64,000 bases of DNA from Pseudomonadota bacterium. Lineage in GTDB: Bacteria; Desulfobacterota; Binatia; Binatales; Binataceae. Below, one piece after another: positions 1,397 through 17,762 of the stretch (its first letter is position 1; the number at the start of each line of letters is the position of its first letter). Both the position numbers and the translations under genes were made by a program. The stretch spans positions 1 through 64,000 of the forward strand of contig JAJPIG010000012.1 in NCBI GenBank assembly GCA_021324855.1, given 5' to 3'. The notes beneath the pieces are model-generated. The model was not told the DNA's origin, did not search any database, and saw only the letters and a program-made list of their open reading frames with translations.

Positions 1397-2386
1397 TCAC
1401 CCCGTGTAGGTTGGTGCGACCCCGAACTTCTCCATCATCGCGATGTAGTCCTTGACCGCGCCGAGCAGGTCGTACTGCGGCTCGTAGCCCAGCTCTTCGC
1501 GCGCGCGCGTGATGTCGTGCAGCGAATAGACGTTGTGCCCGAGGCCGAAGTAGTCGAGGCCCGGACCGATGTCGAACTCGGCGCGCGGATAAATCTCCTT
1601 CAGAACCGCAGCCAGCTCGCGCAGCGTGTGCAGCTTGCCGCTGCCGATATGAAAAATCCGCGAACGCGTCCCCGACGCTTGAGCTGCCAGCACGATGCTG
1701 TTCGCGACATCCTTGACGTAGACGTTGTCGTCGCGCTGCTCGCCACCCTGCGGGATCCGCGTCGGCTTCCCGAGCATCGCGTTCTCGACGATGCGCCCAT
1801 AAATCGACAGCACGCCGTGACGCGCGAGCTTGCCGGGCGCGAAGATGCCGGCGAAGCGCAGCGCGATGAAATCGATGCCGTAGTTGCGATGGTAATTCAT
1901 GCCCATCCCTTCGCTCGCGACTTTCGTCACGTCGTAAACCAACACCGGGCGGGCAGGGTAGTCCTCGTCGAGCGGCCGAAAAGTCGGATGGCCGTACTCT
2001 CCCGTGACGTCTCCGTAAGCGCCCTTCGAACTGGTGAAGACCACCTTGCCGATGTCGCCAAGGCGCGCCGCTTCGAGCACCGTCACGGTCGCCATCGCGT
2101 TGATCTCGAACCCGGTCCGCGGATCGGCCTGCGCTGCGTTGGGCATCAGGGCAGCGAGATGCAGAATCGCGTCGGGACGGGTCTCCTTGATCACACGCAG
2201 GAGGGCGGCGAGGTCGCGCGTGTCGCCGCGATAGAACCTAAAGTCATCCTTTACATCTTTCAGGAACGTAAAGTCCGGCGCCCAATCGAAAACGATCGGC
2301 TCAATCCCCTGCTCGAGCATCTGGCGCACCACCCATACGCCGTTGACGCCGGTGCCGCCGGTTACCAATGCTTTGCGCAATGCCAT
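1397..2386 (-). CDS. NAD-dependent epimerase/dehydratase (extended SDR)
   Basis: Extended short-chain dehydrogenase/reductase of 329 aa, expected to act on a nucleotide sugar or other hydroxylated substrate in the cytoplasm. The dinucleotide motif TGGTGVNG is at residues 9-16, TSSKGAYG near 118-125 provides the active-site Ser, and Tyr151/Lys155 (YDVTK) form the catalytic pair. Length is normal for the family. It is the last gene of a minus-strand run, nine bases behind the zinc alcohol dehydrogenase, and is preceded by an AAGGA ribosome site. The company of carboxylase genes suggests a catabolic redox or epimerisation role rather than envelope sugar synthesis. The substrate cannot be told from sequence. 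Confidence 0.9.
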   Translation of the reverse strand: MALRKALVTGGTGVNGVWVVRQMLEQGIEPIVFDWAPDFTFLKDVKDDFRFYRGDTRDLAALLRVIKETRPDAILHLAALMPNAAQADPRTGFEINAMATVTVLEAARLGDIGKVVFTSSKGAYGDVTGEYGHPTFRPLDEDYPARPVLVYDVTKVASEGMGMNYHRNYGIDFIALRFAGIFAPGKLARHGVLSIYGRIVENAMLGKPTRIPQGGEQRDDNVYVKDVANSIVLAAQASGTRSRIFHIGSGKLHTLRELAAVLKEIYPRAEFDIGPGLDYFGLGHNVYSLHDITRAREELGYEPQYDLLGAVKDYIAMMEKFGVAPTYTG

Positions 2387-2395
2387 GGGAATTCC

Positions 2396-3490
2396 TTAAT
2401 CGGGCGCGATCGTTACCTTGATGGTTTCGTGATTGCCGAGCTCGCGGCCGGCCGCCTTGACCGCCTCCTCGGCGCGGCTCAGCGGATAGCGGTCGGTCAC
2501 GATCTCCTCGAACGGGTATTTGCGATGCGGGTCGAAGGCGATTGCGATCCGCATGGCCTGCGCGCTGCTGGTGAAGACGCCGCGGAAGTTAATCTCCTTG
2601 TAGAGGAACTGATCGAGGCGCAGCGGCGTTTCGGTCGTGTCGCCGGTGACGCCGGCGTTGACGACGGTTCCCTGCGGACGGACCATCTCGACCGACTTTG
2701 CGACCGCCGCGGGCGCGCCGGTTACATCGACGACCACATCGACGCCGCGTCCGTCGGTCACCTCGCGAACGATTTTGCCGAGATCCTGCTTATCGACATC
2801 GACGACGACGTCAGCCGTGAAGCGTTTCGCGAGCTCGAGGCGATTGCGATCGCTGCTGCGGCCGGTTGCGATGATCGCGCGGGCGCCGGCTTCACGAGCC
2901 ACCGCGATGCAGGCGAGGCCGATCGGACCGACACCCTGGATAAGCGCGACATCGCCAAGCTTCAAGCCGCCCTTCAGTATCGTCCACTGGATCGCGTTGG
3001 CGGTGGCGACGTTGAGCAGAATCGCGCGCTCGGTCGGCAGTTCATCGGGAATCTTGTAAACCTGCGTCCCGGGCGCGAGATACATGTATTCGGCGTACGA
3101 GCCCCATAGATGCGGCGGGACGCTCGCCGAGATGCTGGTGCCGTACCCCACGTGGCCCTCGCAGAACTTGTAGTTGCCGTCGATGCAATGGCGGCAGAAG
3201 CCGCATCGCACCAGCGCCTCGAGGACGACGCGGTCGCCGCGCTTCACGCCCCATCGGCGCTCCGCGAGCGGCCCGATCCGCTCGATGCGCCCGAGGATCT
3301 CGTGCCCGAGGATCAGCGGATAATCCGCGTACTTGACTGTGCCGTGGTAGAGGCCGACGTCGGTGTGGCAGATGCCGGCCATCTCGACGCGGAGCAGCCC
3401 GGTGTCGTCGGTGATCTCGGGAATCGCGAAGCGTTTCAAATTGATGCGGTCGGGCGCTTCGAGTACCGCCGCGCGTGCCTCTGCGCTCAT
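2396..3490 (-). CDS. Zinc-dependent alcohol dehydrogenase (MDR family)
   Basis: Medium-chain NAD(P)-dependent alcohol dehydrogenase of 364 aa that should oxidise an alcohol or reduce a carbonyl. The catalytic zinc site is Cys41 with His63-Glu64 (GHE). The structural zinc lobe has Cys96, Cys99, Cys102 and Cys110. The nucleotide fold carries GVGPIG. A GGAGG site lies just upstream of the ATG. It sits between a HyuB-type carboxylase subunit (31 bases upstream) and the epimerase (nine bases downstream) and is probably co-transcribed with both. A plausible job is producing the ketone that the carboxylase uses, as in secondary-alcohol to ketone to ketoacid routes. That is inference from position. 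Confidence 0.92.
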   Translation of the reverse strand: MSAEARAAVLEAPDRINLKRFAIPEITDDTGLLRVEMAGICHTDVGLYHGTVKYADYPLILGHEILGRIERIGPLAERRWGVKRGDRVVLEALVRCGFCRHCIDGNYKFCEGHVGYGTSISASVPPHLWGSYAEYMYLAPGTQVYKIPDELPTERAILLNVATANAIQWTILKGGLKLGDVALIQGVGPIGLACIAVAREAGARAIIATGRSSDRNRLELAKRFTADVVVDVDKQDLGKIVREVTDGRGVDVVVDVTGAPAAVAKSVEMVRPQGTVVNAGVTGDTTETPLRLDQFLYKEINFRGVFTSSAQAMRIAIAFDPHRKYPFEEIVTDRYPLSRAEEAVKAAGRELGNHETIKVTIAPD

Positions 3491-3521: not shown

Positions 3522-5843
3522 CTAGGCGGCGCTGTCCAGGTCGTAGCGTGTCGGACGGTCTTCCGGAACCACCTGGGTAAGGAATGCGGTATAGCATCCG
3601 GGACAGCAGAACTGCCGGAACACCACCTTTGTATCGACGTAGCGCCACGGTTCGGGAAAAATCTGCGGTCCCGCCATCTGCGGCTCGCCTTCGACGAGCG
3701 CCAGATGCTCGAGGTAGTTCTCGCCGCGCGCACAGATCATCTGGCCGCAATGATTACACTCGAAGACGCGCCGCCCGCCAACATCGGTCTCCACCAGGTT
3801 GTCGTTCCAATGAAGATCGTGCGCATGGTTATGATGCTGATGCTCCGGCGCGACGCCAGCGGCGGCGTGGCCGGCGCGTTTCGCGCGCGTCCTCCGATCA
3901 TTGCAGATACGTGTACGGCGCTCCTCGGTTTTTTTCGCATCAACGGCGCCGTGCGAATCGAGGATGACGCCGTAGATATCGCGCGCTGACTCCTGCGAGA
4001 TGCGCAGCTCGAGTATGTCGCTGCGCACCATCTCGGGGTCGCGCAGGATCGGATCGCCCATGCCGCCGGCGCACTGCCAGTGCAAATAATGCACGTCGCC
4101 GGGATTGAGGTACGACTCCTTCTCCGACGGCTGGTATTCGGTTACGCCCGCGATTTCCTTCAGATCGCCGGGAATGACGCCTCTCTTCAAAAGGTCGCGC
4201 AGGTTGCTATCGCGAATCGTGATATCGACCTGGGTGCTGCCCGGATAGCCGCCGCTGATACCCACGTTCATGCTCGCCGCCTTGCCGGAGCCGGAAACCA
4301 CCATGCTCATCGGCACGTCGGTCTTGTAGGGCGCAAAGCACATCGACGCCGACATCCCGCCGCGGAACCGTCCGGGGCCGCCGGAATCAGTCTCCTCGCG
4401 CCGCCAGAGATAGAGAATCGGATTCATGAACTCGACCATTTCGACATCCGGCGCGCGGCCCATCACGATGCCCGGCAATCCGCCCGTGTCGACGCCGTCG
4501 CTGTCAGTGCGCGCGCCGAGTCCGCCGGCCATCGGATCCATCAGCATGCTGACGAACGGCTTGTGGTACTGATCGATTCCGGAGAGCACCGCGAGCGCCC
4601 AGGTTCCGGTGCAGACCGACATCGCGGATTTTCGATGGTCGGGATGCGCCATCATCATCTTCGCGACGCACTCCTGCACGGCGTTCGCCGTCGTCCATCC
4701 CGAGGCGACGGAGGCCTTCGAGATGCCGGCTGGGAAGGTGCAGTTGTTGAGCGTGCCATCTTCGCTGATGATCTCGCAGCATCGCAGCAGACCGCCTGCC
4801 GCCCACGGCACATCGCCGCAGAGCGTCGGCAGCGTGCTCCACAGGACGCCCGCATGAAGCGTGCTGTGGGTGCAGTTGATCAGACCCTCGACCTGAGGAT
4901 CGGTGCCGCGGAAATCGAAAATCAAATGCTCACCCTTTTTGATCAGGTTGAGGACGATCTTGTAAAGCCCGCGATCGCCCTCGCGCGCTTCCTCCTGGTA
5001 GGCGACGGCGTGCCAGTTACCATCCGGAATCGCCCGCAGTTTGGCGCGCACCCGCTGCTCGGTATCGTCGAGCATGCGCTTCATCACGGCCTTGACCATG
5101 TCGGGGCCATACTTGCGGATCATCCCGCGCAATTGCTCGTGGGCGAAATTGTTGGCGCCGATCTGTGCGCGCAGATCGAGCGCGACGAGCCGCGGGATGC
5201 GCGAGCGGCGCAGGTAGACATCTTCGACATCGCGCTGCAGCCGATAACCGCGCACGATCTTGACCGGCGGCGTCGGCAGCGATTCCCAGAACACGCTGGT
5301 CGCGCGCGGCGTCCAACTGCCCGGCGCGACGCCGCCCAGGTCGAGCTGATGCGATGACGCCGAGGTCCAGCCGAAAAGCCTGCCTTCCCAGAACAGCGGT
5401 GCGTAGACCGCAACGTCGTTCTGATGCATGCCACCGCCGACCCATGGATCGTTGCAGAGGAACATGTCACCTTCTTCGATTCCGGGATTTTCGGCGCGAT
5501 ATTCGAGCGTCCACTTGACGGCGCGGTCGAGCGCGATCGCGAGGCCGGCGTTGTAGGGCCCGATCTGCACCAAATCGCCGACTTCATCCATCAGGGCGAA
5601 ATTGAAATCGTTGGCGTCGGTGACAACGATCGATCCGGACATCCGCTTGATCGCGTCGCCCATCTCCTCGGTCGCCATCCACAAACGATGCCGGATGACT
5701 TCGAAGCTCAGCGGATCGACATGCGCCGCCTCGGATGCCGAAACTTCGTGGAAGTTCACGTACGGCGCGGCCTTCGCGCGCACCACCTCGGGCGGATTGC
5801 CCTTGTAAGCGAAGATTTCAGACCCCGGAATCGTAACCGCCAT
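3522..5843 (-). CDS. HyuB/acetone carboxylase alpha-like subunit with fused AcxC-like domain (copy 1)
   Basis: A 773-aa protein of the hydantoinase B/oxoprolinase family (PF02538), which includes acetone and acetophenone carboxylase subunits. The conserved GDMFLCNDPWVGGG block lies near residue 130. The last ~100 residues form a second domain with CNHC (696-699) and CCPGC (746-750). Its pattern matches the small zinc-binding gamma subunit AcxC of acetone carboxylase, here fused in one chain. A His-rich linker (HQHHNHAHDLH, about 668-678) is unique to this copy. It is more diverged from the other two copies than they are from each other. It heads the run with the alcohol dehydrogenase and epimerase and has no adjacent HyuA, so it may share one encoded upstream. 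Confidence 0.88.
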   Translation of the reverse strand: MAVTIPGSEIFAYKGNPPEVVRAKAAPYVNFHEVSASEAAHVDPLSFEVIRHRLWMATEEMGDAIKRMSGSIVVTDANDFNFALMDEVGDLVQIGPYNAGLAIALDRAVKWTLEYRAENPGIEEGDMFLCNDPWVGGGMHQNDVAVYAPLFWEGRLFGWTSASSHQLDLGGVAPGSWTPRATSVFWESLPTPPVKIVRGYRLQRDVEDVYLRRSRIPRLVALDLRAQIGANNFAHEQLRGMIRKYGPDMVKAVMKRMLDDTEQRVRAKLRAIPDGNWHAVAYQEEAREGDRGLYKIVLNLIKKGEHLIFDFRGTDPQVEGLINCTHSTLHAGVLWSTLPTLCGDVPWAAGGLLRCCEIISEDGTLNNCTFPAGISKASVASGWTTANAVQECVAKMMMAHPDHRKSAMSVCTGTWALAVLSGIDQYHKPFVSMLMDPMAGGLGARTDSDGVDTGGLPGIVMGRAPDVEMVEFMNPILYLWRREETDSGGPGRFRGGMSASMCFAPYKTDVPMSMVVSGSGKAASMNVGISGGYPGSTQVDITIRDSNLRDLLKRGVIPGDLKEIAGVTEYQPSEKESYLNPGDVHYLHWQCAGGMGDPILRDPEMVRSDILELRISQESARDIYGVILDSHGAVDAKKTEERRTRICNDRRTRAKRAGHAAAGVAPEHQHHNHAHDLHWNDNLVETDVGGRRVFECNHCGQMICARGENYLEHLALVEGEPQMAGPQIFPEPWRYVDTKVVFRQFCCPGCYTAFLTQVVPEDRPTRYDLDSAA

Positions 5844-5988
5844 CCATCATGCTCCGTCGGAAGATAATTTTTCGGTTGGCCGATGAGATCGTCTTTATGG
5901 CATCATCGGCGCCGTCGCAAACTAGCGCGATTTCATGCGATCCGCCAATCGCGGCGCTGCAGAGAAATCAAAGCCAAGAGGGGCAATT

Positions 5989-6591
5989 ATGGCCGATTTG
6001 AAACTTCGCAAAAGCACCACCGCGCTCATCGCGATGGACATCCAAAACCTGCAGGTGGGCGCGCTCAAGCAGAACAACCCCGCGCGCGCGAACATGCCGG
6101 AGACGCTGCGCACAGTGATCGAGGCGGCGCGGCAGGCCGGAATCCTGGTAATCCACGTCGTGGTGCGCTTCCGCGACGGCTATCCGGAGGTCAACCCGCG
6201 CAACCTGCTGATCGGCCGGCTCTCGGACACCGGGTTGCTCAAGGAATCGGGCGTGGACGCGCAGATCAACTCCGCGATCACGCCGCTCCCGAACGAACCG
6301 ATCGTGGTCAAACGCCGCGTCAGCGCCTTCTTCGATACCGACCTCGGCACGATCCTGCGCTCGCGCGGCATCGACACTGTGATACTGGCCGGAATCTCAA
6401 CCAGCCGCGTGGTGCTCTCGACGGCAGCCTATGCGTTCGACGCCGACTACTCGATCGTGATCGTCGAAGATTGCTGCGGTGATCCTGACGCCGAGTTGCA
6501 CCGGCTGCTCGCCGACAAGGTGCTCGCGCAATTTGGCACGATCGCCGATTCGCGCGCCGCGATCGCCGCGCTGAAGGGTGCCGCCGACTAG
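5989..6591 (+). CDS. Isochorismatase-fold hydrolase lacking the usual nucleophilic Cys
   Basis: A 200-aa protein of the isochorismatase-like superfamily. Start at ATG 5989 follows an AAGAGGGG site. The Asp of the triad is in AMDIQ and the Lys in VVKRR. Where cysteine hydrolases have GIATNVCVEST, this protein reads GISTSRVVLST, so the nucleophile position is Val. True isochorismatases also lack this Cys, and a GISTSGVVLST-like subfamily is common among environmental bacteria, so it need not be dead. It lies alone on the plus strand between two minus-strand HyuB genes, and its stop overlaps the 3' end of HyuB copy 2 by four bases. Substrate unknown. Confidence 0.88.
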   Translation: MADLKLRKSTTALIAMDIQNLQVGALKQNNPARANMPETLRTVIEAARQAGILVIHVVVRFRDGYPEVNPRNLLIGRLSDTGLLKESGVDAQINSAITPLPNEPIVVKRRVSAFFDTDLGTILRSRGIDTVILAGISTSRVVLSTAAYAFDADYSIVIVEDCCGDPDAELHRLLADKVLAQFGTIADSRAAIAALKGAAD

Positions 6592-8900
6592 GCGCGCGCG
6601 GTAGGCCGCTCAGCGAGACGTTTCAGCCGATACTGCGCCTCTTCGGCCGGCACGATCTCGCTGAGCAGCGCCACGTAGCATCCCGGGCAACAGTACTGAC
6701 GGAACACCACCGGCATATCGACGAATTCGCGCGGCTCGCCGCGAATATGCGGCCCCGCCTCCGATGACGGCGCCTCATGGAGCAGCGCGGCGTTGAGATA
6801 GTTCTGCCCACGCTCGGCGAGCGTCGTCGCGCAATGGGCGCATCGCCAGCGGCCCTCGCGATCAACCATGATGTTGTCATCGATCCGCGACCAGCTCGGG
6901 TCGGGCTCCTTCTTCGGAAGAGGTTCGCGCGCCAGCCTGCCCGCGCGGCGCATCAGAAGCTCGCGCCTGCGCTTGCGCGTCGCTTCGGCATCGAGTTCAG
7001 CGTTCTTGCTCAACACGATGCCGTAGACGTCGCGCGCTGCGGCGGGCGAGATCTTCCGTTCTTCAAGGTCATAAATAACCCGCTCGGGATCGCGCAGGAG
7101 CGGATCGCCGTAGCCGCCGCCGCCCTGCCAGTTGGCGTAGTAGACGTCGTCCCAGCCCAGTTCGATGCCGCCCTCGGGCTGCATCGTTTCTATCGTGCCG
7201 CCGAGATCGGCCAGCCCGCGCGGCCATCGTCCGTGCGTCGCAAGCGTGCGGCGGAAATTCGAATCGCGCACCGCGACGTCATAGGCCGTATTGCCCGGAT
7301 AGCCGCCGCTGATGCCCGAGGCCTGCGGAATCGCCTTGCCGGCCGATGAGATCACGATGTTCATCCGCTTCGCCGGCGAATCGTGAATCACGTAGCAACT
7401 GGTGCCGCCGAGTCCTCCGCGAAAACGGCCAGGACCGCCGGAGTCGACCTCCTCGCGCCGCCAGAGATAAAGGATCGGGAACTGGAATTCGTTCATCTCG
7501 GCGTCAGCCGCGCGGCCCATCGGGATGGTCGCCTCGCCGCCGGTGTCGACGCCGTCGGAATCGGTGCGCGCGCCCAACCCGCCGACCATCGGATCGCAGA
7601 GCATCGTGACGAAACCATGCTCGCGCTGATCGACGCCCGACAGCAGCATCAGATCCCACGACCCGGAGCAGACGCTGGTCGCGTTCCGGCGATGCACCGG
7701 ATGCGTGTCAAGCATCGCGGAAATGCACTCGGTCACCGCGCTCTGCGTCGCCCAGCACGATGCCACCGAGGCCTTGCAGATGCCGGACGGAAAGTTGCAG
7801 TTGTTGATCGTGCCGTCGTCGCTGATCAGCTCGACGCATCGTTCGAGACCGCCGGGCGCCCACGGCATGTCGGCGCAGAGCCAGGGCAGAAGGATTCCCA
7901 TCACCCCCGCGCGCATTCCCGAGTAGGTGCAGTTGATCATCCCTTCGACCTGCGGGTCGGTGCCGCGAAAATCGAAGGTGAGACGATCGTCGCGCTTGGT
8001 CATCGCGACTACGATCTTGTAAAGCCCGCGCTCGCCCTCCTTGGCCTGATCCTGATGCGCAACGGCCTGCCAGGTGCCGTCGGGCAGGCTCTTGAGCTTG
8101 GTGCGCAGCCGCTCCTCGGCATCATCCATGATGCGGTACATGACTGCCTTCACCGTGTCCGCGCCGTACTTGCGGATGAGCGTGGCGAGGCGTTCGTGAG
8201 CGATGTTGTTGGCGCCCATCTTGGCGCGCAGGTCGAGCGCAATCAGCTTGGGCATCCGCGAGCGCCGCAGATAGGCATCCTCGATGTCCGAGCGCAGCTC
8301 GAATTTCTCGACAATTTTGATCGGCGGCGTCGGCAGCGATTCCCAAAAAATATTTTCCGAGCGCGGCGTCCAGCTTCCCGGCGATACTCCGCCGACGTCC
8401 ACCTGGTGCGCGACGGCGCAGGTCCAGGCGAAAATCTTTCCCTCCCAGAACATCGGGGCGAACAGCGAGACGTCATTTTGATGAATTCCGCCGCCGACCC
8501 ACGGATCGTTGCAGAGAAACATGTCGCCTTCCGCGATTCCCGGGTTCGCGGAGCGATTCTCGAGCGTCCACTTCACCGCCATGTCCATCGAGGCGCAGAG
8601 CTCGAGGTTGTAGAGTCCGACCTGAACCTCGTCGCCCAGCTCGTCCATCACTGCGCAGTCGAAATCGTTGCAATCGGTTACGACCACCGAGCCGGACATC
8701 CGCTTCAGCGCCTCGCCCATCTCTTCGGTTATCGCCCACAGGCGATGGCGAATCACTTCGTAGGTCAGCGGATCGATCTTCGCGACCTGCTCGGGCGCGA
8801 CCGTGTGCAGGCCGAGATGTTTCGGCACGCGTTTCAGAATCTCGGCGCGCGGACTCGGCCGGTAGGCGAACTTTTCGGAGCCTGCGATGGTCTGAATCAT
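6588..8900 (-). CDS. HyuB/acetone carboxylase alpha-like subunit with fused AcxC-like domain (copy 2)
   Basis: A 770-aa paralogue of the preceding HyuB. It keeps the GDMFLCNDPWVGGG block, the GPGRFRGG block and a C-terminal zinc domain with CAHC (687-690) and CCPGC (737-741). It is very close to copy 3 along its whole length, for example in the shared SVVVTDCNDFDCAVMDE stretch near residue 73, which points to tandem duplication. It is the third gene of the run HyuA-HyuB-HyuB, three bases after copy 3, and is therefore almost certainly co-transcribed. The predicted role is part of an ATP-dependent carboxylase or hydantoinase-like amidase. The substrate is not deducible. Confidence 0.88.
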   Translation of the reverse strand: MIQTIAGSEKFAYRPSPRAEILKRVPKHLGLHTVAPEQVAKIDPLTYEVIRHRLWAITEEMGEALKRMSGSVVVTDCNDFDCAVMDELGDEVQVGLYNLELCASMDMAVKWTLENRSANPGIAEGDMFLCNDPWVGGGIHQNDVSLFAPMFWEGKIFAWTCAVAHQVDVGGVSPGSWTPRSENIFWESLPTPPIKIVEKFELRSDIEDAYLRRSRMPKLIALDLRAKMGANNIAHERLATLIRKYGADTVKAVMYRIMDDAEERLRTKLKSLPDGTWQAVAHQDQAKEGERGLYKIVVAMTKRDDRLTFDFRGTDPQVEGMINCTYSGMRAGVMGILLPWLCADMPWAPGGLERCVELISDDGTINNCNFPSGICKASVASCWATQSAVTECISAMLDTHPVHRRNATSVCSGSWDLMLLSGVDQREHGFVTMLCDPMVGGLGARTDSDGVDTGGEATIPMGRAADAEMNEFQFPILYLWRREEVDSGGPGRFRGGLGGTSCYVIHDSPAKRMNIVISSAGKAIPQASGISGGYPGNTAYDVAVRDSNFRRTLATHGRWPRGLADLGGTIETMQPEGGIELGWDDVYYANWQGGGGYGDPLLRDPERVIYDLEERKISPAAARDVYGIVLSKNAELDAEATRKRRRELLMRRAGRLAREPLPKKEPDPSWSRIDDNIMVDREGRWRCAHCATTLAERGQNYLNAALLHEAPSSEAGPHIRGEPREFVDMPVVFRQYCCPGCYVALLSEIVPAEEAQYRLKRLAERPTARA

Positions 8901-8903
8901 CGA

Positions 8904-11222
8904 CTAACCTCTCGTGACACTGGCCGCATCGCGCGGCGCGATAGTCTTGGTTCGATATTGGGTTTCGTCCGCGGGCACGATTTCCGTCAGCAGCGCAGCG
9001 TAGCATCCGGGGCAACAGAACTGGCGGAACGTCACGCGCTGATCGACGAAGCGATCCGGCTCGCCGCGAATCTGCGGGCCCGCCTCGCTCGGTGCACCCC
9101 GCCGGACGAGCGCGCCGTCGAGGTAGTTGCGGCCGCCTTCTGCAAGGATGGTACCGCAATGGGCGCATCGCGAACGGCCGTCGGCATCGAGCGCGACGTT
9201 GTCATCGATTCGCGACCATCCCGATTGCGAGACTTCAGCCACGCGCGGCGAGGCGCCGGATCTTCCGGCGCGCCTCATCCGCAGTTCGCGCCGGAGCTGT
9301 TGGGTTTCGCTCATGATGACCTGGCCACGATCGTCGAGCGCGACGCCGTAGACAGCTCGTGCTGCCTCGCGCGAGACCTTGCGCTCAGCGACGTCCCAAG
9401 CGACGCGCTCGGGCTCGCGCAGAATCGGGTCCCCGTAGCCGCCGCCGCCCTGCCAATTGGTGTAATAAACGTCGTCCCAGCCGAGCTGCGTGTCGCACTC
9501 AGGCGGCAGATATTCGAACTCGCCGCCTAGATCGCTCAGCTCGCGCGGCCATCGCCGCCCGCCCAAAAGCTTCCTGACGTTCGAGTTCCGCACCGCGACA
9601 TCGTAGGAAGTGTTTGCCGGGTAACCGCCGCTCGTGCCGCAGGCGAGCGGCACCGCCTTGCCAGATGACGACACCACGAGGCCCATCTGCCGGGTCGATG
9701 AGTCGTGAATCATGAAGCAGCTCGATGCGCCCAGTCCGCCGCGGAAGCGGCCGGGGCCGCCCGAATCGATTTCTTCGCGGCGCCACAGATAAAGAATCGG
9801 GAACTGGAATTCGTTCATCTCGACATCGGCCGCGCGGCCCATCGGGATGCAGGGGCCGCCGCCCGTATCGACGCCGTCCTGGTCGGCGCGCGCGCCGAGT
9901 CCGCCCGCCATCGGATCGCACAGCATCGTGACGAACCCGTTGTCGTGCTGATCGACGCCCGAGAGCAGGATCAAATCCCAAGTTCCGATGCAGACGCTCA
10001 TCGCGTTCTCGCGATGGGTCGGATGCATGTCGAGCATCGCTGCGATGCATTCGATCGCCACGTTATGCGTGGCCCAGGTCGAGCCGACCGAGGCCTTCGA
10101 AATTCCCGACGGGAAGGTGCAGTTGTTGAGCGTACCGTCCTCGCTAATGAACTCCAGGCAGCGCTCGATCCCGCCCGGCGCCCACGGAATGTCGCCGCAA
10201 AGCCACATCATCACGATCGCGAGCACGCCCGCGCGCATTCCTGCGTACGTGCAGTTGATCATCCCGATCACTTGGGGGTCGGTGCCGCGGAAATCGAAGA
10301 TCAGGCGGTCGTGCTGCTTGGTCATCGCGAGCACGACCTTGTGCAGGCCGCGGTCGCCGCTTTTGGCCTGATCCTGGTAGGAGACTGCATGCCAGGTGCC
10401 GTCGGGCAGGGCGCGCAGCTTGGCGCGCAGCCGCTCCTCGGCATCATCCATCGCGCGATACATCACGGCCTTCACGACATCGGCGCCGTACTTGCGGATC
10501 AGCACCGTGAGCCGCTCTTGCGCGATGTTGTTCGCGCCCATCATTGCGCGGAGATCGAGCGCGAGCAGCTTCGGCATCCGCGAGCGCCGCAGAAAGGCAT
10601 CCTCGATGTCGGCGCGAATCTGGAATTTCTCGACCAGCTTGATCGGCGGCGTCGGCAGCGATTCCCAGAAGACGTTCTCCGAGCGCGGCGTCCAGCTTCC
10701 CGGCGACACTCCGCCGACGTCCACCTGATGCGCCACTGCGCAGGTCCATCCGAGCAACTCGCCTTCCCAGAAGAACGGCGCGAACAGGGAGGCATCGTTC
10801 TGATGCAACCCGCCGCCGACCCACGGATCGTTGCAGAGAAACATGTCGCCTTCCGCGATTCCCGGGTTCGCGGCGCGATTCTCGAGCGTCCACTTGACGG
10901 CCATGTCCATCGAGGCGCAGAGCTGCGCGTTGTAAAGCCCGACCTGGACCTCGTCGCCCAACTCATCCATCACGGCACAATCGAAATCGTTGCAATCGGT
11001 GACGACCACTGAGCCGGACATCCGTTTGATCGCCTCGCCCATCTCCTCGGTAATCGCCCACAAGCGATGGCGGATGACTTCGTAGGTCAGCGGATCGAGC
11101 TTCGCGACCTGCGCGCGGCCGACGCTGTGCAGCTTGAGCCCGGCGGGGATTTTCTTCAGGAGGTCGGCGCGCGAACCCGGCCGGTACGCGAATTTCTCGG
11201 CGCCCGCGATGGTGGGAATCAT
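8904..11222 (-). CDS. HyuB/acetone carboxylase alpha-like subunit with fused AcxC-like domain (copy 3)
   Basis: A 772-aa paralogue placed 13 bases after the HyuA gene in the same run, so the two should form the working complex. Family blocks are intact, with the C-terminal AcxC-like zinc module CAHC (686-689) and CCPGC (736-740). In characterised acetone carboxylase the gamma subunit is a separate chain of about 170 aa; here it is the tail of the alpha-like chain. Either copy 2 or copy 3 could pair with HyuA, giving alternative complexes, or both could be needed together as in acetophenone carboxylase, which has several different HyuA/HyuB-like chains. Confidence 0.88.
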   Translation of the reverse strand: MIPTIAGAEKFAYRPGSRADLLKKIPAGLKLHSVGRAQVAKLDPLTYEVIRHRLWAITEEMGEAIKRMSGSVVVTDCNDFDCAVMDELGDEVQVGLYNAQLCASMDMAVKWTLENRAANPGIAEGDMFLCNDPWVGGGLHQNDASLFAPFFWEGELLGWTCAVAHQVDVGGVSPGSWTPRSENVFWESLPTPPIKLVEKFQIRADIEDAFLRRSRMPKLLALDLRAMMGANNIAQERLTVLIRKYGADVVKAVMYRAMDDAEERLRAKLRALPDGTWHAVSYQDQAKSGDRGLHKVVLAMTKQHDRLIFDFRGTDPQVIGMINCTYAGMRAGVLAIVMMWLCGDIPWAPGGIERCLEFISEDGTLNNCTFPSGISKASVGSTWATHNVAIECIAAMLDMHPTHRENAMSVCIGTWDLILLSGVDQHDNGFVTMLCDPMAGGLGARADQDGVDTGGGPCIPMGRAADVEMNEFQFPILYLWRREEIDSGGPGRFRGGLGASSCFMIHDSSTRQMGLVVSSSGKAVPLACGTSGGYPANTSYDVAVRNSNVRKLLGGRRWPRELSDLGGEFEYLPPECDTQLGWDDVYYTNWQGGGGYGDPILREPERVAWDVAERKVSREAARAVYGVALDDRGQVIMSETQQLRRELRMRRAGRSGASPRVAEVSQSGWSRIDDNVALDADGRSRCAHCGTILAEGGRNYLDGALVRRGAPSEAGPQIRGEPDRFVDQRVTFRQFCCPGCYAALLTEIVPADETQYRTKTIAPRDAASVTRG

Positions 11223-11235
11223 GACGACACTCCGG

Positions 11236-13335
11236 TCATTTGAAATGCAGCACGAGGTTCCCGAGCTGGTCGATGCGGGCCATCGCGCGCGGCGTCACAG
11301 CCACCGTCGTGGTCGGCGCCTCGACGATCGCCGGACCTTCGATTTCGTGGCCGAACGCGAGCTTCTCGTAATCGTAGACCGTGGTCTCAATCCATCCGCT
11401 CGCCAGATCGAGAAAGGCGCGCCGCCTGCCCTTGATCGCCGACTCGACGCCGGCGCGCGCTTTTGGCAATACCGGCAGACTCGGCTTGAACGGCAGATAG
11501 CCGACCGCGAACACGCGATATGTAATGAACTGCAGACCCGCCTCGCGATAGCCGGTGCCCTTGCCGTAGAGCTTCGTGTACAGCTCCTCGAAGCTGTCGC
11601 TGATGCCGTGGATATCGTCCTCGCTGAGCTTGCCGGATTTGACTGGTGTCGAGACCTCGGCGAGCTGCAGCGTGTAGCGGATGTCGATCTCGCGCGCCAT
11701 CGTGACCCGCGAGAACGGGATGCGCTGCGCTTCGAGGTCGGAGCGCAGCCGCGCCTCGAGTTCCTCGAACGTGTGATTGACGACCTCGGCCGGCACCGGG
11801 AAATTTTGCGGGCGCGAAACTTCGGCGGTGAGCCCGACGTTCGATGCCGCCAGACCAAAGGCCGAAAATGCCGATGCGGTTTCGCCGAGCGGCACCACGA
11901 CGGTTCCAACGCCCAGATCGGCCGCGTAACCCGCGCAATGCACGGGGCCGGCGCCGCCGAACGAGTAGAGCGCGAAATCACGCGGATCGTAGCCGGCGCT
12001 CACCACGCATTTGCGCACCAGGTCGGAGGCCTGCGCATTCGCGATGCTGTAGATCGTCGCCGCGGCCTGCTCGACGCTCATCTTGAGCGGCTCGGCGATC
12101 TTCTCGCGGATCGCCTGCTCGGAAAGGTCGCGGCGCAGATGCTTTCGGCCGCCGAGGAAAAAATCCGGGTTCAGGATTCCCAGCACCACGTCGGCGTCGG
12201 TGATGGTCGGGTCATGGCCGCCCGCCGCATAGCAGGCCGGTCCCGGAGCCGCGCCGGCGCTGCGCGGACCGACCTTCAGATTGCCGCCCTGATCGATCCA
12301 CGCGATCGCGCCGCCGCCGCTGCCGATCGCCGCCACCCGGACCATCGGCAGGTTCAGCGTGTACTGGTTGATGACGGTCGTGGTCGCCGTTACCGGCTTG
12401 CCATCGACGACCAGGCCGACTAGGAAGGTCGTGCCGCCCATGTCGGTCGAAATGATGTTTTTATGGCCGAGCGACTCGCCGAGATTCACCGAGCCGACCA
12501 CGCCGCCCACCAGCACCGAGCCGATCGTGCTGATCGCCTGGCGCGGTGCGGTGTCGGCGGAAATTGTGCCGCCCGAGCCCTGCATCACGAGCAGGACGCC
12601 GCCGAATCTGCGCCGCTCGAGTTCGTCCTGGAGCGAGCGCAGGTAGGCGCGAAGCGCCGGACCGACCTGGCCGTTCATGATGGTGGTGACGCTCCGCGGA
12701 TACTCGCGGATGCGCGGACAGACCTCGCTTGACAGGCTGACGTAAAGCTCAGGTGCGACTTCGTGAATCAGCTCGCGGATACGATTTTCATGCGCGGGGT
12801 TGCGGAACGACCATAAAAGCGAGACCGCGATCGCCGCCACATCCTCGTCGATTAGTTCCTTGATCGCTTCGCGCGCAACAGTCTCATTAAGCGGAAGAAT
12901 CTCGGCGCCCTTGTAATCGACGCGCTCATCGACCTCCTTGACGAGGCGCTTGCGCACGAGCGGCGGCGGTTTGTTGGTGCGGGTGAAATCCTGGATCTGT
13001 TCCGGACCCAGACCCGCGTAGCGGCCTTCGCCGTTCATGATCACGATTGAATCGCCATGACCGCACGTGGTGATGAATCCAACCTTCGCGGCGGTGCCAG
13101 TGACCAGTGAATTCAGTGACGCGGTGGTGCCGTGGCAGATGTAGCTGGTGCTCTGCAAAAGCGCCTCGGTGCTGAGCTTGAGCCGCGACGCCAGCTCGTC
13201 GATCGCGTCGATCACGCCGCGCGCGTAGTTGTCGGGTGTCGACGGCGACTTGGCCGAGACCACACGCGCCTGATCGTCAGTCGCAAAAGCGTCGGTGAAG
13301 GTTCCGCCGATATCGATGCCGAGAATGAATTGCAT
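11236..13335 (-). CDS. HyuA/acetone carboxylase beta-like subunit (copy 1)
   Basis: A 699-aa hydantoinase A/oxoprolinase family protein. The N-terminal ATPase-type fold opens with GIDIGGTFTDAFA (6-18), the phosphate-binding turn of the ASKHA-like domain. Later family blocks include STDMGGTTFLVG and GSGGGAIAWID. In acetone and acetophenone carboxylases this subunit uses ATP to activate bicarbonate and/or the ketone. It is first in the operon with HyuB copies 3 and 2. It diverges from a second, similar HyuA across a 260-base control region. No frameshift or missing block is seen. Confidence 0.9.
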   Translation of the reverse strand: MQFILGIDIGGTFTDAFATDDQARVVSAKSPSTPDNYARGVIDAIDELASRLKLSTEALLQSTSYICHGTTASLNSLVTGTAAKVGFITTCGHGDSIVIMNGEGRYAGLGPEQIQDFTRTNKPPPLVRKRLVKEVDERVDYKGAEILPLNETVAREAIKELIDEDVAAIAVSLLWSFRNPAHENRIRELIHEVAPELYVSLSSEVCPRIREYPRSVTTIMNGQVGPALRAYLRSLQDELERRRFGGVLLVMQGSGGTISADTAPRQAISTIGSVLVGGVVGSVNLGESLGHKNIISTDMGGTTFLVGLVVDGKPVTATTTVINQYTLNLPMVRVAAIGSGGGAIAWIDQGGNLKVGPRSAGAAPGPACYAAGGHDPTITDADVVLGILNPDFFLGGRKHLRRDLSEQAIREKIAEPLKMSVEQAAATIYSIANAQASDLVRKCVVSAGYDPRDFALYSFGGAGPVHCAGYAADLGVGTVVVPLGETASAFSAFGLAASNVGLTAEVSRPQNFPVPAEVVNHTFEELEARLRSDLEAQRIPFSRVTMAREIDIRYTLQLAEVSTPVKSGKLSEDDIHGISDSFEELYTKLYGKGTGYREAGLQFITYRVFAVGYLPFKPSLPVLPKARAGVESAIKGRRRAFLDLASGWIETTVYDYEKLAFGHEIEGPAIVEAPTTTVAVTPRAMARIDQLGNLVLHFK

Positions 13336-13596: not shown

Positions 13597-15699
13597 ATGA
13601 GTTATGCGATCGGTGTCGACGTCGGCGGCACATTTACCGACGCCTTTGCCTCCAGCGACAGCGGCGTGGTCGTTTCCGCAAAATCGCCGTCGACGCCGCC
13701 GGATTTCTCCCGCGGGGTGGTCGGGGCGCTGACTGAGCTTGCCCGCACGCTTGGACTCACGCTCGACCAGTTGATGGCCGACACTTCCTACGTATGCCAC
13801 GGCACCACCTCGACGCTGAATGCGCTGGTTACCGGCGACACCGCGAAAATCGGGTTCCTGACCACCAAAGGCCACCGCGATTCTATCTACATAATGAACA
13901 TCGAGGGCCGCTACGCCGGTCTCGGTCCAGAGCAGATTCAGAATTTCGTCCGCACCAACAAACCGCCGGTGCTGCTCCCCAAGCGCCGCGCCAAAGAGAT
14001 TACCGAGCGCGTCGATTATGCCGGCGACGTCGTCGTGAAGCTGAACGAAAACGAGGTCAGGGCGGCGGTCAAGGAACTCCTTGACGACGGCGTCGAGGCG
14101 ATTGCGGTTTCGTACCTCTGGTCATTCCGCAACCCGGCGCACGAGCGGCGCACGCGCGAGATCATCCATGAGCTTGCACCGGGCCTGTTCGTCGGGTTGT
14201 CATCCGACATCTGCCCTAAAATTCGCGAGTACTCGCGCGCCGCGACTACCATCATGAGCACGCAGGTCGGTCCGACGCTGAGGAAATATCTCGAGCCGCT
14301 GATGCGCGATCTCACCTCGGCCGGACTCAAGGGTCCGCTGCTCGTGATGCAGGGCTCGGGCGGCACGGTCGCGGCGCAAGATGCGCCGAATCACGCGATC
14401 ACGACCATCGGCTCGGTGCTTACCGGCGGGGTGGTCGGCGGACTTCATCTCGGCGCGCGTCTCGGCCATCGCAACATCATCACGACTGATGTCGGCGGCA
14501 CGACGTTCCTGGTCGGAATGATCGTCGACAACAACCCGGTCTTCACCACCACCAGTTTCATCAATCAGTACACGATCAACGCGCCGATGATGCGCGTGCA
14601 ATCGATCGGCAGCGGCGGCGGCGCGATCGCCTGGGTCGATCCCGGCGGCAACCTGCGCGTCGGGCCGCGTTCCGCCGGCGCGGCTCCCGGGCCCGCCTGC
14701 TACGGCCAGGGAGGCGAGGAGCCGACCGTCACCGATGCTGACCTCGCCCTGGGAATCCTCAATTCGAAATTCTTTTTGGGCGGCAAATGGCCGCTCAAGC
14801 CTGAACTCGCGACGCAGGCGCTGCGTGAGAAGATCGGCAAGCCGCTCAAGCTCAACGATGAGGAAGCGGCGGTCGCCGTATTCGCCGTGCAGAACTCGCA
14901 GACCGCCGACTTGGTGCGCCGCTCGGTGCTCGAAGCCGGCTACGATCCGCGCGATTTCGTGGTCTACGCGTTCGGCGGCGCCGGTCCGGTGCATGCCTGG
15001 GCATATGCGAAGGACATCGGCGTGCGCGAACTGGTCGTGCCGCTCGGTCCGACCGCCGCAGCGTTCTCAGCTTACGGTCTCGCGGCTTCCGACATCATCA
15101 TCTCGGCGGAGCTTTCCGATCCCGCGAACTTTCCGGTTGATCACAAGGTACTCAACCGCAACTTCGAGAATCTCGAACAGGATGTGCTCGGCCGGCTAAA
15201 GGAGCAGGGCGTCAAGTTCCGCGCGATCGAAACGCGGCGCGAGCTCGATATCCGCTACACGCTGCAGATCGCGGAAGTCGCGACTCCGGTGAAGAACGGC
15301 AAGCTTGACGAAGCGGATGTCGGCGTGATTGCCAGCGATTTCGAGAAGAAGTACGAGACCCTTTACGGCAAGGGTACAGGCTATCGCGAGGCCGGCCTGC
15401 AGGCGATTACTTATCGCGTGTTCGGCACCGGCATGCTTCCACTTAAGCCGGTGCTGCCCGAAGTGCCGAAAGCCAACGGACGTCCGCTCAGCAGCGCGCT
15501 CAAGGAGCGGCGGCCGGTGCTGATGGATCCGCAGGTCGGATGGAAGGAAACGCCGATCTACGATTATCAGCAGCTCGCCGCGGGCCACACCTTTGAAGGC
15601 CCGGCGATTGTCGAGGCGCCGACCACGACGGTGGTCGTCGCGCAAGGCAACCAGGCGACGCTCGATGAACTCGGCAATATCGTGATCCGCTTCTCATAA
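13597..15699 (+). CDS. HyuA/acetone carboxylase beta-like subunit (copy 2)
   Basis: A 700-aa paralogue of the divergent HyuA, alike from end to end: GVDVGGTFTDAFA (6-18), STSYVCHGTT-type block, TTDVGGTTFLVG, GSGGGAIAWVD and a matching C-terminus. It has no HyuB immediately downstream. Instead an amidohydrolase follows after 18 bases. It may therefore pair with one of the three HyuB chains encoded on the other strand, for example copy 1, which lacks its own HyuA. That pairing is inference. Confidence 0.9.
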   Translation: MSYAIGVDVGGTFTDAFASSDSGVVVSAKSPSTPPDFSRGVVGALTELARTLGLTLDQLMADTSYVCHGTTSTLNALVTGDTAKIGFLTTKGHRDSIYIMNIEGRYAGLGPEQIQNFVRTNKPPVLLPKRRAKEITERVDYAGDVVVKLNENEVRAAVKELLDDGVEAIAVSYLWSFRNPAHERRTREIIHELAPGLFVGLSSDICPKIREYSRAATTIMSTQVGPTLRKYLEPLMRDLTSAGLKGPLLVMQGSGGTVAAQDAPNHAITTIGSVLTGGVVGGLHLGARLGHRNIITTDVGGTTFLVGMIVDNNPVFTTTSFINQYTINAPMMRVQSIGSGGGAIAWVDPGGNLRVGPRSAGAAPGPACYGQGGEEPTVTDADLALGILNSKFFLGGKWPLKPELATQALREKIGKPLKLNDEEAAVAVFAVQNSQTADLVRRSVLEAGYDPRDFVVYAFGGAGPVHAWAYAKDIGVRELVVPLGPTAAAFSAYGLAASDIIISAELSDPANFPVDHKVLNRNFENLEQDVLGRLKEQGVKFRAIETRRELDIRYTLQIAEVATPVKNGKLDEADVGVIASDFEKKYETLYGKGTGYREAGLQAITYRVFGTGMLPLKPVLPEVPKANGRPLSSALKERRPVLMDPQVGWKETPIYDYQQLAAGHTFEGPAIVEAPTTTVVVAQGNQATLDELGNIVIRFS

Positions 15700-15717: not shown

Positions 15718-16749
15718 ATGGAGCTGATGATTTCGGCTGACTCGCACGTGTTCGAGCCGCTCGATCTGTGGCGCACCCGCTTGCCAGCGCGCTTTCGCGA
15801 CGCGAAGCTTCCGATTACTGAGGCTGGCGCGAAATCCTTCGCGGCGCATCCGGGCGGCACCGACCCGCATGCGCGGCTCACCGAGATGCGCGCCGACGGG
15901 GTCAGCGCCGAGGTGCTCTATCCCACGGTCGCGCTGCCATTGTTCGCGGTGGACGATCCGGAGCTGCAGCGCGCCTGCTTCGAAACTTACAACGACTGGC
16001 TGTGCGAGTACTGCTCGATCGCGGGCGATCGCCTGATCGGCGTATCGCTGATCGCCTGCCATGACATCCGCAACGCGGTTGCCGATCTCGAGCGCTATCA
16101 CGCGCGCGGCCTCAAGGGTTTCGAAGTCTGGATGTCGCCGGCGCCCGAGCTGCCGTTCTCTTCGCGGCACTACGATCCGCTGTGGGCGGCGGCCGAGCAG
16201 CTCAAGGCGCCCGTCAGCCTGCACATTTTGACCGGCCACGACTACAGCAACAAGCTGTTCGACGATCCGCGCGCCAACTCCCTTGAGTGGTTCCGCGGCC
16301 CGGTGAATCGTAAGCTCGAGGCCGTTATGACCGCGCTCTACGACCTGGTTTTTTCCGGCGTCTTCGCCCGCTTTCCGGGGCTCAAGCTGGTGCTGGTCGA
16401 GAACGAGATCGGATGGCTGCCGTTTGTGATCCAGCAGTGGGATTACTACTACAAGCGCTTCCGCAGCAATCTCGAGCTGCCGATCGATCGCATTCCGAGC
16501 GAGTATTTCGCCGACAACATCTTCGCCACATTCTTTAACGATCGGGTCGGATGCCGGCAGCTTGCATTCTGGGGCGCCGACAATTGTATGTGGTCGAACG
16601 ACTATCCGCATCCGAATTCGACCTGGCCGAAATCACGCGAGCGCATCGAGGAGCTGCTCGGGGGGCTTACGCCGGCGACGCGCACCAAGCTGCTCTCGTC
16701 GAACGTGATTCGGCTCTATGGCCTCGACGCCGCCCGCCTCGCCTCCTGA
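15718..16749 (+). CDS. Amidohydrolase family 2 (ACMSD-like) metal-dependent hydrolase
   Basis: A 343-aa TIM-barrel protein of the amidohydrolase 2 family (PF04909), which contains decarboxylases and hydrolases acting on aromatic or ring-cleaved acids. The N-terminal metal motif reads SADSHVFEP, a barrel His lies in SLHILTG, and the C-terminal metal Asp lies in WSNDYPHPNSTWP. Length is usual. It starts 18 bases after HyuA copy 2 with a GAGG site, so both are likely on one transcript. A decarboxylase acting on the carboxylase product or on an aromatic acid is possible, but the substrate is not deducible. Confidence 0.9.
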   Translation: MELMISADSHVFEPLDLWRTRLPARFRDAKLPITEAGAKSFAAHPGGTDPHARLTEMRADGVSAEVLYPTVALPLFAVDDPELQRACFETYNDWLCEYCSIAGDRLIGVSLIACHDIRNAVADLERYHARGLKGFEVWMSPAPELPFSSRHYDPLWAAAEQLKAPVSLHILTGHDYSNKLFDDPRANSLEWFRGPVNRKLEAVMTALYDLVFSGVFARFPGLKLVLVENEIGWLPFVIQQWDYYYKRFRSNLELPIDRIPSEYFADNIFATFFNDRVGCRQLAFWGADNCMWSNDYPHPNSTWPKSRERIEELLGGLTPATRTKLLSSNVIRLYGLDAARLAS

Positions 16750-16998: not shown

Positions 16999-17706
16999 AT
17001 GGCGGTACGACGAACATCAAGAAATAAACCGGAGTCCAACGACACCGAAGCCGCCGAACGCGTTGCGACCGTCGAGACCGTCGCCGAAACGATCCGCCGG
17101 CGTATCCAGCACGGCCGCTACCGTTCCGGGCAGCGCCTGGTCGAGGCTGATCTCACGAGCGAGCTTGGCGTGAGCCGCGGACCGGTGCGGGAGGCATTTC
17201 GACGACTCGCGGCCGAAGGGATGCTCGAGCTGGTGCATAATCGCGGCGCGCAGGTGCCGATGCTCTCGCGCGCCGGCGTCGAGGAACTGCTCGAAGTGCT
17301 TACACCGCTGGTGGTGGCAGGCGCGGAACTCGCGGCGCGCCGCGCTCATATTCCGGCCGTCAAGCGGCGCGTGCGTGCGGCGCTCGCCGCGACGCGGGCG
17401 TTCCAGCGGCGCCCGGCGGCGCGGCTCACCGTCGCCGACTGCATGGACGAGAACGGACGGTTCCATGAAGCGCTGGCGGAACTAAGCGGCAATCCGCGGC
17501 TAGCGCGGCTCATTTCGCAACTGCAGATCAACATGTTCCGGCTTGCCTACCACAATCCGCGTATTCCGGCCGACCGCGCGCGCTGGACGGTAAATCATGA
17601 GGCGATCCTGAAGGCGGTGGCGGCCGGAGATGCGCCGCGCGCGGCGCGCCTGATGCGCGAGTTCTGCCGCCGGATCGGCCCGGTGCTGATCGAACTTGCG
17701 GTTTGA
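16999..17706 (+). CDS. GntR family transcriptional regulator (FCD type)
   Basis: Regulator of about 235 aa. The N-terminal winged helix covers roughly residues 25-90, with GQRLVEADLTSELGVSRGPVREAFRRL being the typical GntR recognition region. The C-terminal FCD domain shows DENGRFHEALAELSGN and NHEAILKAVAAGD, which carry the usual metal/ligand Asp and His residues. ATG 16999 is preferred; an upstream ATG at 16960 would add 13 residues unlike the family. Its stop overlaps the frame leading into the Rieske oxygenase gene, so it may control that gene or the hyuA/amidohydrolase transcript in response to a carboxylic acid. Confidence 0.88.
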   Translation: MAVRRTSRNKPESNDTEAAERVATVETVAETIRRRIQHGRYRSGQRLVEADLTSELGVSRGPVREAFRRLAAEGMLELVHNRGAQVPMLSRAGVEELLEVLTPLVVAGAELAARRAHIPAVKRRVRAALAATRAFQRRPAARLTVADCMDENGRFHEALAELSGNPRLARLISQLQINMFRLAYHNPRIPADRARWTVNHEAILKAVAAGDAPRAARLMREFCRRIGPVLIELAV

Positions 17707-17762
17707 CGCCCGCTCCGGGATTGTCCTACAATTTTGAAGTTCGACCCGGAGGTGATTCAACG

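Follow-up and report, generated by a model that had tools for sequence, protein, structure and literature searches.

The locus studied here lies in a 64,000-nucleotide stretch of DNA (the window) and raises the question of whether three proteins of the hydantoinase B (HyuB) family, each with a cysteine-bearing C-terminal module, may be subunits of a ketone carboxylase or of a hydrolase. Analysis of the open reading frames indicated that the three chains are intact and occupy exactly the span 3522-11222 on the minus strand, and that each ends in a module of about 100 residues with four cysteines, in which, as the original prediction had described, a C-x-H-C motif is followed by CCPGC, here about 47 residues on.

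HyuB-gamma 3 (8904..11222, minus strand, 772 aa) is made up of a HyuB body, matched by Pfam at residues 43-599, followed by the gamma tail (8946..9266, minus strand). HyuB-gamma 2 (6588..8900, minus strand, 770 aa; tail 6591..6941) is 73% identical to HyuB-gamma 3, while HyuB-gamma 1 (3522..5843, minus strand, 773 aa; tail 3540..3863) shows 56-58% identity to both. According to the open reading frame list and Pfam, the gene order on the minus strand is HyuA1 (11236..13335, a kinase-like subunit), HyuB-gamma 3, 2 and 1, a zinc alcohol dehydrogenase (2396..3490) and an NAD-dependent epimerase/dehydratase-type protein (1397..2386), which is the final gene of the putative operon. The plus strand carries, in divergent orientation, a second kinase-like subunit, HyuA2 (13597..15699, 61% identical to HyuA1), the adjoining Amidohydro_2 protein (15718..16749), a putative GntR-type regulator ORF that gave no NCBIfam matches at 1e-25, and a Rieske ring-hydroxylase-type oxygenase (17703..18923). 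The inventory of the locus is two kinase (HyuA) genes and three beta-gamma genes.

In a genome of the same genus, G001, the block from HyuA1 to the epimerase-type gene is kept in the same order with 81-88% identity (alcohol dehydrogenase 86%, epimerase-type protein 81%). HyuA2, the amidohydrolase (75%) and the Rieske oxygenase (72-73% over the part covered) are also kept, at 72-89%, and a different alcohol dehydrogenase adjoins HyuA2; the regulator ORF had no match in the stretch covered. An isochorismatase-family ORF (5935..6591, plus strand) lies between HyuB-gamma 2 and 1 in the window. Since it is missing from that place in the G001 stretch covered, it was left out of the system and rejected as evidence for a hydantoin pathway; it may be an insertion in the window lineage. 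The named locus L089, retrieved in the scan described below, appears to be a contig of G001.

The Pfam family of the acetone carboxylase gamma subunit (PF08882, Acetone_carb_G, curated cut-off 21) gave 21.4 bits for HyuB-gamma 1 and 19.6 and 15.2 bits for the other two window proteins, so that one of the three passed; in the genome scan the same proteins scored 25.6, 22.8 and 18.3 bits and two of three passed, and matches under the cut-off were also obtained at E <= 1 in two of 14 control genomes. Among ten relatives scanned, six matched at E <= 1 and two of the ten passed the cut-off; two fused actinobacterial chains gave no PF08882 match at E <= 1. Since PF08882 misses HyuB-gamma 3 and these two chains, the case for gamma homology rests on profiles and folds. 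A single-sequence phmmer search of the PDB with HyuB-gamma 3 aligned residues 681-751 with ApcB (5l9w_C, E 7.3e-5) and matched the body to ApcD, CapB, AcxA and N-methylhydantoinase. A tail profile of 17 sequences (fused tails and split gammas) retrieved ApcB (5l9w_C) from the PDB as the top match at E 1.4e-7, followed by AcxC at E 0.11, which is insignificant alone, and an unrelated zinc finger at 0.14. The rows of this alignment were picked for their cysteine pattern, and therefore the invariance of the cysteines in it is partly built in. Comparison of the tails with the gamma family, which had been proposed as a check, was positive for ApcB and gave PF08882 scores on both sides of the cut-off. 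Alignment of profiles with hhalign matched the tails to eight ApcB-type gammas at 97.6% (E 2.6e-12) and to nine AcxC-type gammas at 96.2% (E 2.1e-9), and the ApcB-type and AcxC-type gammas to each other at 99.2%. In a more distant fused relative (L082) the tail matched ApcB (0.002) and AcxC (0.0067) and passed the PF08882 cut-off with 38.8 bits.

The conserved ligands of the tails are the pairs CxxC and CPxC, the extra cysteine preceding CP being variable in the alignment. The CxxC...CPxC spacing is that of the ApcB type, and the tails are 29-30% identical to ApcB; AcxC-type rows show CxC...CPxC. The spacing had originally been likened to that of AcxC: CxHC and CCPGC are indeed present, but the spacing follows ApcB, which is also the nearest solved gamma subunit. 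In HyuB-gamma 3, Cys685/Cys688 and Cys736/Cys739 align with the ApcB zinc cysteines, numbered Cys22/25 and Cys75/78 in PMC5214803. The cysteine pattern was found in 88/88 fused rows and 19/20 split gammas. In the split gamma of L093 (9893-11563) the second cysteine pair is garbled and the frame continues into a Rieske oxygenase, which may reflect a frameshift in the metagenome-assembled genome (MAG) or a gamma-Rieske fusion. In another locus (L190 5269-8409, G090 C296) a 1047-aa frame carries a gamma-like stretch at 278-360 preceding a HyuB body at 424-1030; this may reflect either a gamma module placed at the N-terminus or the run-through of a frame.

The AlphaFold2 model of HyuB-gamma 3 (48 sequences) has a mean pLDDT of 92.4 and a pTM of 0.92, with residues 671-750 at 90-96. 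Foldseek matched the full-length model to 5m45_A (4.3e-50) and 5l9w_A (8.7e-50), and also to 9h03_A and 6yra_B. Lower in the list stood 5l9w_C (E 1.6e-3, 97 columns, 3.4 A), a match attributed to the tail because its length and identity fit; two DhaR-DhaK chains (TM 0.11) ranked directly above the gamma chains. VIA-align superposed the full-length model on ApcD (5l9w_A) with Z 37.1 and rmsd 2.2 over 632 residues; its list for this model held no gamma chains, which did appear for the tail-only model. The latter (17 sequences; pLDDT 81.4, pTM 0.66) matched five PDB chains at E <= 1e-3, all five being Apc or Acx gamma subunits, and in VIA-align 5l9w_C scored Z 8.3, the best other fold being a yippee-type domain at Z 3.8. 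The predicted fold of the tail is thus that of a gamma subunit. Since the model contains no metal, the zinc site was read from the cysteine alignment. The phmmer, profile, hhalign and fold matches agree, and support the tails of the three HyuB chains as gamma-subunit homologues fused to HyuB, with a plausible zinc site, as originally proposed.

A quick, unrooted tree with long branches was built from the HyuB bodies only, the tail being left out of the alignment. It contained 41 rows with gamma, namely fused and split chains, ApcD, AcxA and the canonical operons, and 28 gamma-less rows, and a single change of label (SH-aLRT 99) separated the two sets. The gamma-less set includes caprolactamase and N-methylhydantoinase. 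CapB and N-methylhydantoinase were labelled gamma-less from the literature and the other 26 of the 28 because gamma was found neither in the ORF nor in the stretch covered, which extended 156, 354 and 556 bases downstream for three rows and at least 657 for the others. Two HyuB trees placed the new family on a branch separate from both Acx and Apc. In a 98-row tree, made after four duplicate loci and then 33 of the 131 rows, closely related fused chains from actinobacteria, had been omitted, the fused label requires seven changes, at least five of them on starred branches, and HyuB-gamma 2 and 3 are placed beside split-gamma chains of actinobacteria and Labrys. The Asp-His-Asp-His metal site is present in all three window HyuB chains and is equally conserved in gamma-less and gamma-bearing chains. 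Its residues were therefore rejected as a discriminator of carboxylase and hydrolase, and they give no pointer to carboxylation. The NCBIfam ApcD equivalog gave 214-236 bits on the window HyuB proteins against a cut-off of 1500. The assignment of the HyuB body to the ketone-carboxylase (gamma-bearing) side of the family is supported by the tree.

Analysis of the kinase-like subunits led to the same placement. HyuA1 harbors the motifs DxGGTFTD, DMGGT and GAAPGP, and ATP motifs of the ASKHA type, as defined in PMC8453981, are present in both HyuA1 and HyuA2. With these motifs and the Asp/Glu-His-Asp-His site of HyuB, the window carries the features that define the hydantoinase/ketone-carboxylase superfamily. 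Among solved structures HyuA1 scored highest with ApcC (5l9w_B, 426 bits), followed by N-methylhydantoinase (365), CapA (364), AcxB (331) and ApcA (204), while in NCBIfam HyuA1 and HyuA2 scored higher with CapA (532 and 531) than with ApcC (439 and 393), all far under the cut-offs. In the HyuA tree, which was built without ApcA itself, both fell within a 45-row set (support 100) apart from AcxB, ApcC, the second HyuA of Apc-type operons, CapA and N-methylhydantoinase. No alpha-prime partner was found near the locus, both HyuA being outside the branch of the Apc-type second HyuA, and no epsilon partner as in Apc was recognised there. Because the HyuB and HyuA trees agree, the new family is placed on the carboxylase side as neither Acx nor Apc.

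We asked how widely the fusion occurs. In the genome of the window PF08882 was matched seven times, always within frames of 739-797 aa; the same genome contains ten full-length HyuB and a 55-aa fragment, and seven HyuA, four of which lie beside HyuB-gamma. Three of the ten full-length HyuB have no tail, so that the tail is not a universal part of hydantoinase B proteins. Two further HyuB-gamma of this genome (L071, G000 C13; L072, G000 C2) are on contigs with no HyuA match and are orphan beta-gamma chains. PF08882 was matched in 20 of 57 relatives (own genome counted), and 25 of the 43 matches listed are in 709-816-aa frames with a HyuB body. In 54 relatives 196 HyuB matches stand against 25 fused chains among the matches listed, and the tail is therefore far from universal in HyuB. 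In an even sample of the phylum 18 of 297 genomes had a PF08882 match.

When named genomes were scanned with the fused proteins, 206 stretches were confirmed, and the 80 that scored best, corresponding to 79 loci, were kept. Since the search started from the fused family and retained only the best 80 of 206, these loci are not an unbiased sample of HyuB. Gamma was fused in 59 of these best 79 loci and encoded by a separate next ORF in 20. Most loci are from Actinomycetota, others from Labrys, Mesorhizobium and one gammaproteobacterial MAG, and three from MAGs deposited as Deltaproteobacteria; the listing of one Rhodococcus MAG under Cyanobacteriota in the taxonomy used was read as a homonym and disregarded. 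The architecture itself is firmly shown. It had been thought unusual, but with its occurrence in these 59 loci and in a haloarchaeon it is broader than that. Among the 20 split loci of this set, 16 have a gamma start that overlaps the hyuB stop (ATGA/GTGA), and in the remaining four a start lies 8-10 bases past the first base of that stop; only a small mutation thus separates the fused from the split state. Plasmid-borne forms were split in Natronosalvus halobius and fused in Halorientalis marina and Mycobacterium branderi. In N. halobius (L242 4992-7222, plasmid NZ_CP099998.1) hyuA and hyuB are followed by a separate gene annotated as acetone carboxylase subunit gamma, which overlaps hyuB by 4 bases. 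The product of this gene reaches 81.6 bits against the profile of the tails and 58.7 against that of canonical gamma, and in sequence it is intermediate between the two. More than one fused HyuB per locus was found only in the window genus (three, in the window and in G001) and in G035 (two), the named loci being viewed over +-8 kb, and the triple set only in the window genus among the loci examined. The G035 locus (L081 3967-6237 and 12814-15093, C72, same class) has its two fused HyuB in 12 kb with one HyuA between them.

The neighbourhoods of fused and split loci differ. Within +-8 kb in the best 79 loci, an EntE-like ligase was found in 34/59 fused and 3/20 split loci, an aldehyde dehydrogenase (ALDH) in 7/59 and 17/20, an SDR in 9/59 and 10/20, and a Rieske protein in 0/59 and 7/20, respectively. 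Therefore the substrate, perhaps even the reaction, would vary, and the naming of a substrate from neighbours was tried and rejected. A conserved actinobacterial cluster surrounds the fusion (L138 10276-12048 and neighbours), with an EntE-like ligase, a salicylyl-CoA-hydroxylase-like monooxygenase, TetR, a VOC protein, an arylmalonate-decarboxylase-like protein and a 437-aa protein, each present in 24-37 of the 59 fused loci among the best 79; the 437-aa protein gave no Pfam matches at 1e-5 and no PDB matches at 0.01. A paper on skatole (PMC13101512) considered for the Rhodococcus cluster was set aside, the term hydantoinase being absent from its main text. The N. halobius locus has a thiolase and an acyl-CoA dehydrogenase. 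On the M. branderi plasmid (L244, NZ_AP022607.1) the fused HyuB-gamma is surrounded by five genes annotated as cytochrome P450, together with one annotated as of the 2,4'-dihydroxyacetophenone dioxygenase family. Taken over these loci, the context would fit a pathway in which an alcohol dehydrogenase supplies the ketone and the resulting acid undergoes activation or further oxidation, although single neighbours such as a ligase, a dehydrogenase or a Rieske protein are commonplace in catabolic clusters.

The best reading of these data is a putative third branch of the ketone carboxylases driven by ATP, marked by the fusion of beta with gamma. The locus probably gives rise to one carboxylase complex, or to two, dependent on ATP but not on biotin, with the metal-site subunit (named beta in Apc, alpha in Acx) and zinc gamma in one polypeptide. 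In Apc and Acx the ketone is phosphorylated by the kinase subunit, and bicarbonate by the same kinase subunit in Acx and presumably by alpha-prime in Apc; for Acx, formation of the C-C bond has been proposed at the metal bound by the HyuB-type subunit, with which gamma associates, its zinc being thought structural (PMC5214803, PMC5543143). By analogy, HyuA would bind ATP and phosphorylate an enolisable carbonyl and bicarbonate, and the activated species would pass to the Asp-His-Asp-His metal site in the HyuB body for formation of the C-C bond. The zinc tail would act as a structural clamp on the body, and the fusion would set a 1:1 ratio of the subunits. The substrate may be a ketone, perhaps formed when the adjoining alcohol dehydrogenase acts on a compound that the Rieske oxygenase has attacked.

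An ordinary hydantoinase B with an unrelated C-terminal zinc ribbon is very improbable: PF08882 scores near its cut-off, unrelated zinc ribbons are weak matches for the split forms and the zinc finger is level with AcxC in the PDB profile search, but ApcB stands alone there, and both the profile-profile and the fold searches rank Apc/Acx gamma first. ATP-dependent hydrolases acting on cyclic amides or lactams, of the hydantoinase, caprolactamase or oxoprolinase type, that kept gamma as a structural clamp are a more serious contender, though an unlikely one. They would account for the good scores of HyuA with CapA in NCBIfam, for a metal site common to hydrolases and for the isochorismatase ORF between two window hyuB genes, one being nearby in 4/59 fused loci of the best 79 as well; that ORF is missing from its place in G001, however, and hydantoinases are reported to have no gamma (PMC5214803). 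The body tree also argues against them. The 28 gamma-less rows, caprolactamase and N-methylhydantoinase included, are on its opposite side, and forcing the 30 rows of the new family together with the 10 of the caprolactamase branch, a group named after the tree was seen, cost 107.7 log-likelihood units and was rejected (p-AU 2.2e-5).

Whether one enzyme or two are encoded is a separate matter, since a locus with two enzymes is compatible with either reaction and its chances do not add to those above. HyuA1 with HyuB-gamma 2/3 and HyuA2 with HyuB-gamma 1 could form two enzymes, the extra HyuB-gamma being substrate-specific modules with a common kinase; we give this arrangement somewhat less than an even chance. 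HyuA2 clusters with the HyuA chains from L119/L121/L131 (support 81), HyuB-gamma 1 is in a set with the HyuB of the same three loci (support 88), and another genome (G012) pairs HyuA1 with a HyuB-gamma 2-like chain. The excess of HyuB-gamma over adjacent HyuA in the window genome (seven to four), with two HyuB-gamma contigs that have no HyuA match, points the same way. These supports are modest, however, and in a second tree HyuB-gamma 1 lies closer to the HyuB-gamma 2/3 set than to L119/L131. A still broader extension of the carboxylase reading, which we consider doubtful, would be a third, unrecognised biotin-free carboxylase branch in actinobacteria, some proteobacteria, the window lineage and haloarchaea, annotated as hydantoinase, with repeated beta/gamma fusion or splitting, and with several beta-gamma modules sharing few kinases in this genus, a single kinase then possibly acting on several ketones.

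Gamma subunits are considered the mark that distinguishes acetone carboxylases from hydantoinases (PMC4959651), and the published criteria for the distinction are the gamma gene, gene order and subunit length (PMC5214803). A fused gamma escapes these published criteria, since the operon resembles hyuAB and the chain is annotated as of the hydantoinase B/oxoprolinase family. Because the zinc subunit is fused and the body falls on the carboxylase side, a widespread enzyme group may carry an annotation for the wrong reaction; no description of the HyuB-gamma fusion, and no tested activity for a member of the branch, was recognised in the literature searched, of which coverage was partial. A carboxylase assignment would be a testable hypothesis for many uncharacterised genes of catabolic clusters, among them those of Rhodococcus, Gordonia, Amycolatopsis and Streptomyces, whose reactions may fix CO2 on ketones. 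The single-chain beta-gamma protein would also be convenient for probing the role of the zinc subunit, which the papers on the structures leave open (PMC5214803, PMC5543143).

Comparison with known systems indicated that the locus is like the acetophenone carboxylase ApcABCDE of Aromatoleum aromaticum (5L9W) in its parts: the body resembles ApcD, the tail resembles ApcB and shares its CxxC...CPxC cysteines, and HyuA1 is nearest to ApcC. It differs from Apc in that gamma is fused to beta, in its own branch of the HyuB tree, in a HyuA pair outside the Apc-type second-HyuA branch and in that epsilon was not recognised near the locus. The acetone carboxylase AcxABC of Xanthobacter autotrophicus (5M45/5SVB/5SVC) likewise consists of kinase, HyuB-type and gamma parts, and the split relatives share its order of kinase, HyuB and gamma; the acetone carboxylation that marks Acx forms AMP. 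Acx gamma, however, is a separate gene downstream of acxB, its cysteines are spaced CxC while those of the window are CxxC, its metal ligand Glu89 is Asp in the window, and the window HyuB form a separate branch. Caprolactamase CapAB (6YRA) and N-methylhydantoinase (7HK5) have the same two core folds and the same metal-site residues; they have no gamma, and their bodies lie across a well-supported branch from the window HyuB. 5-Oxoprolinase is grouped with this gamma-less type.
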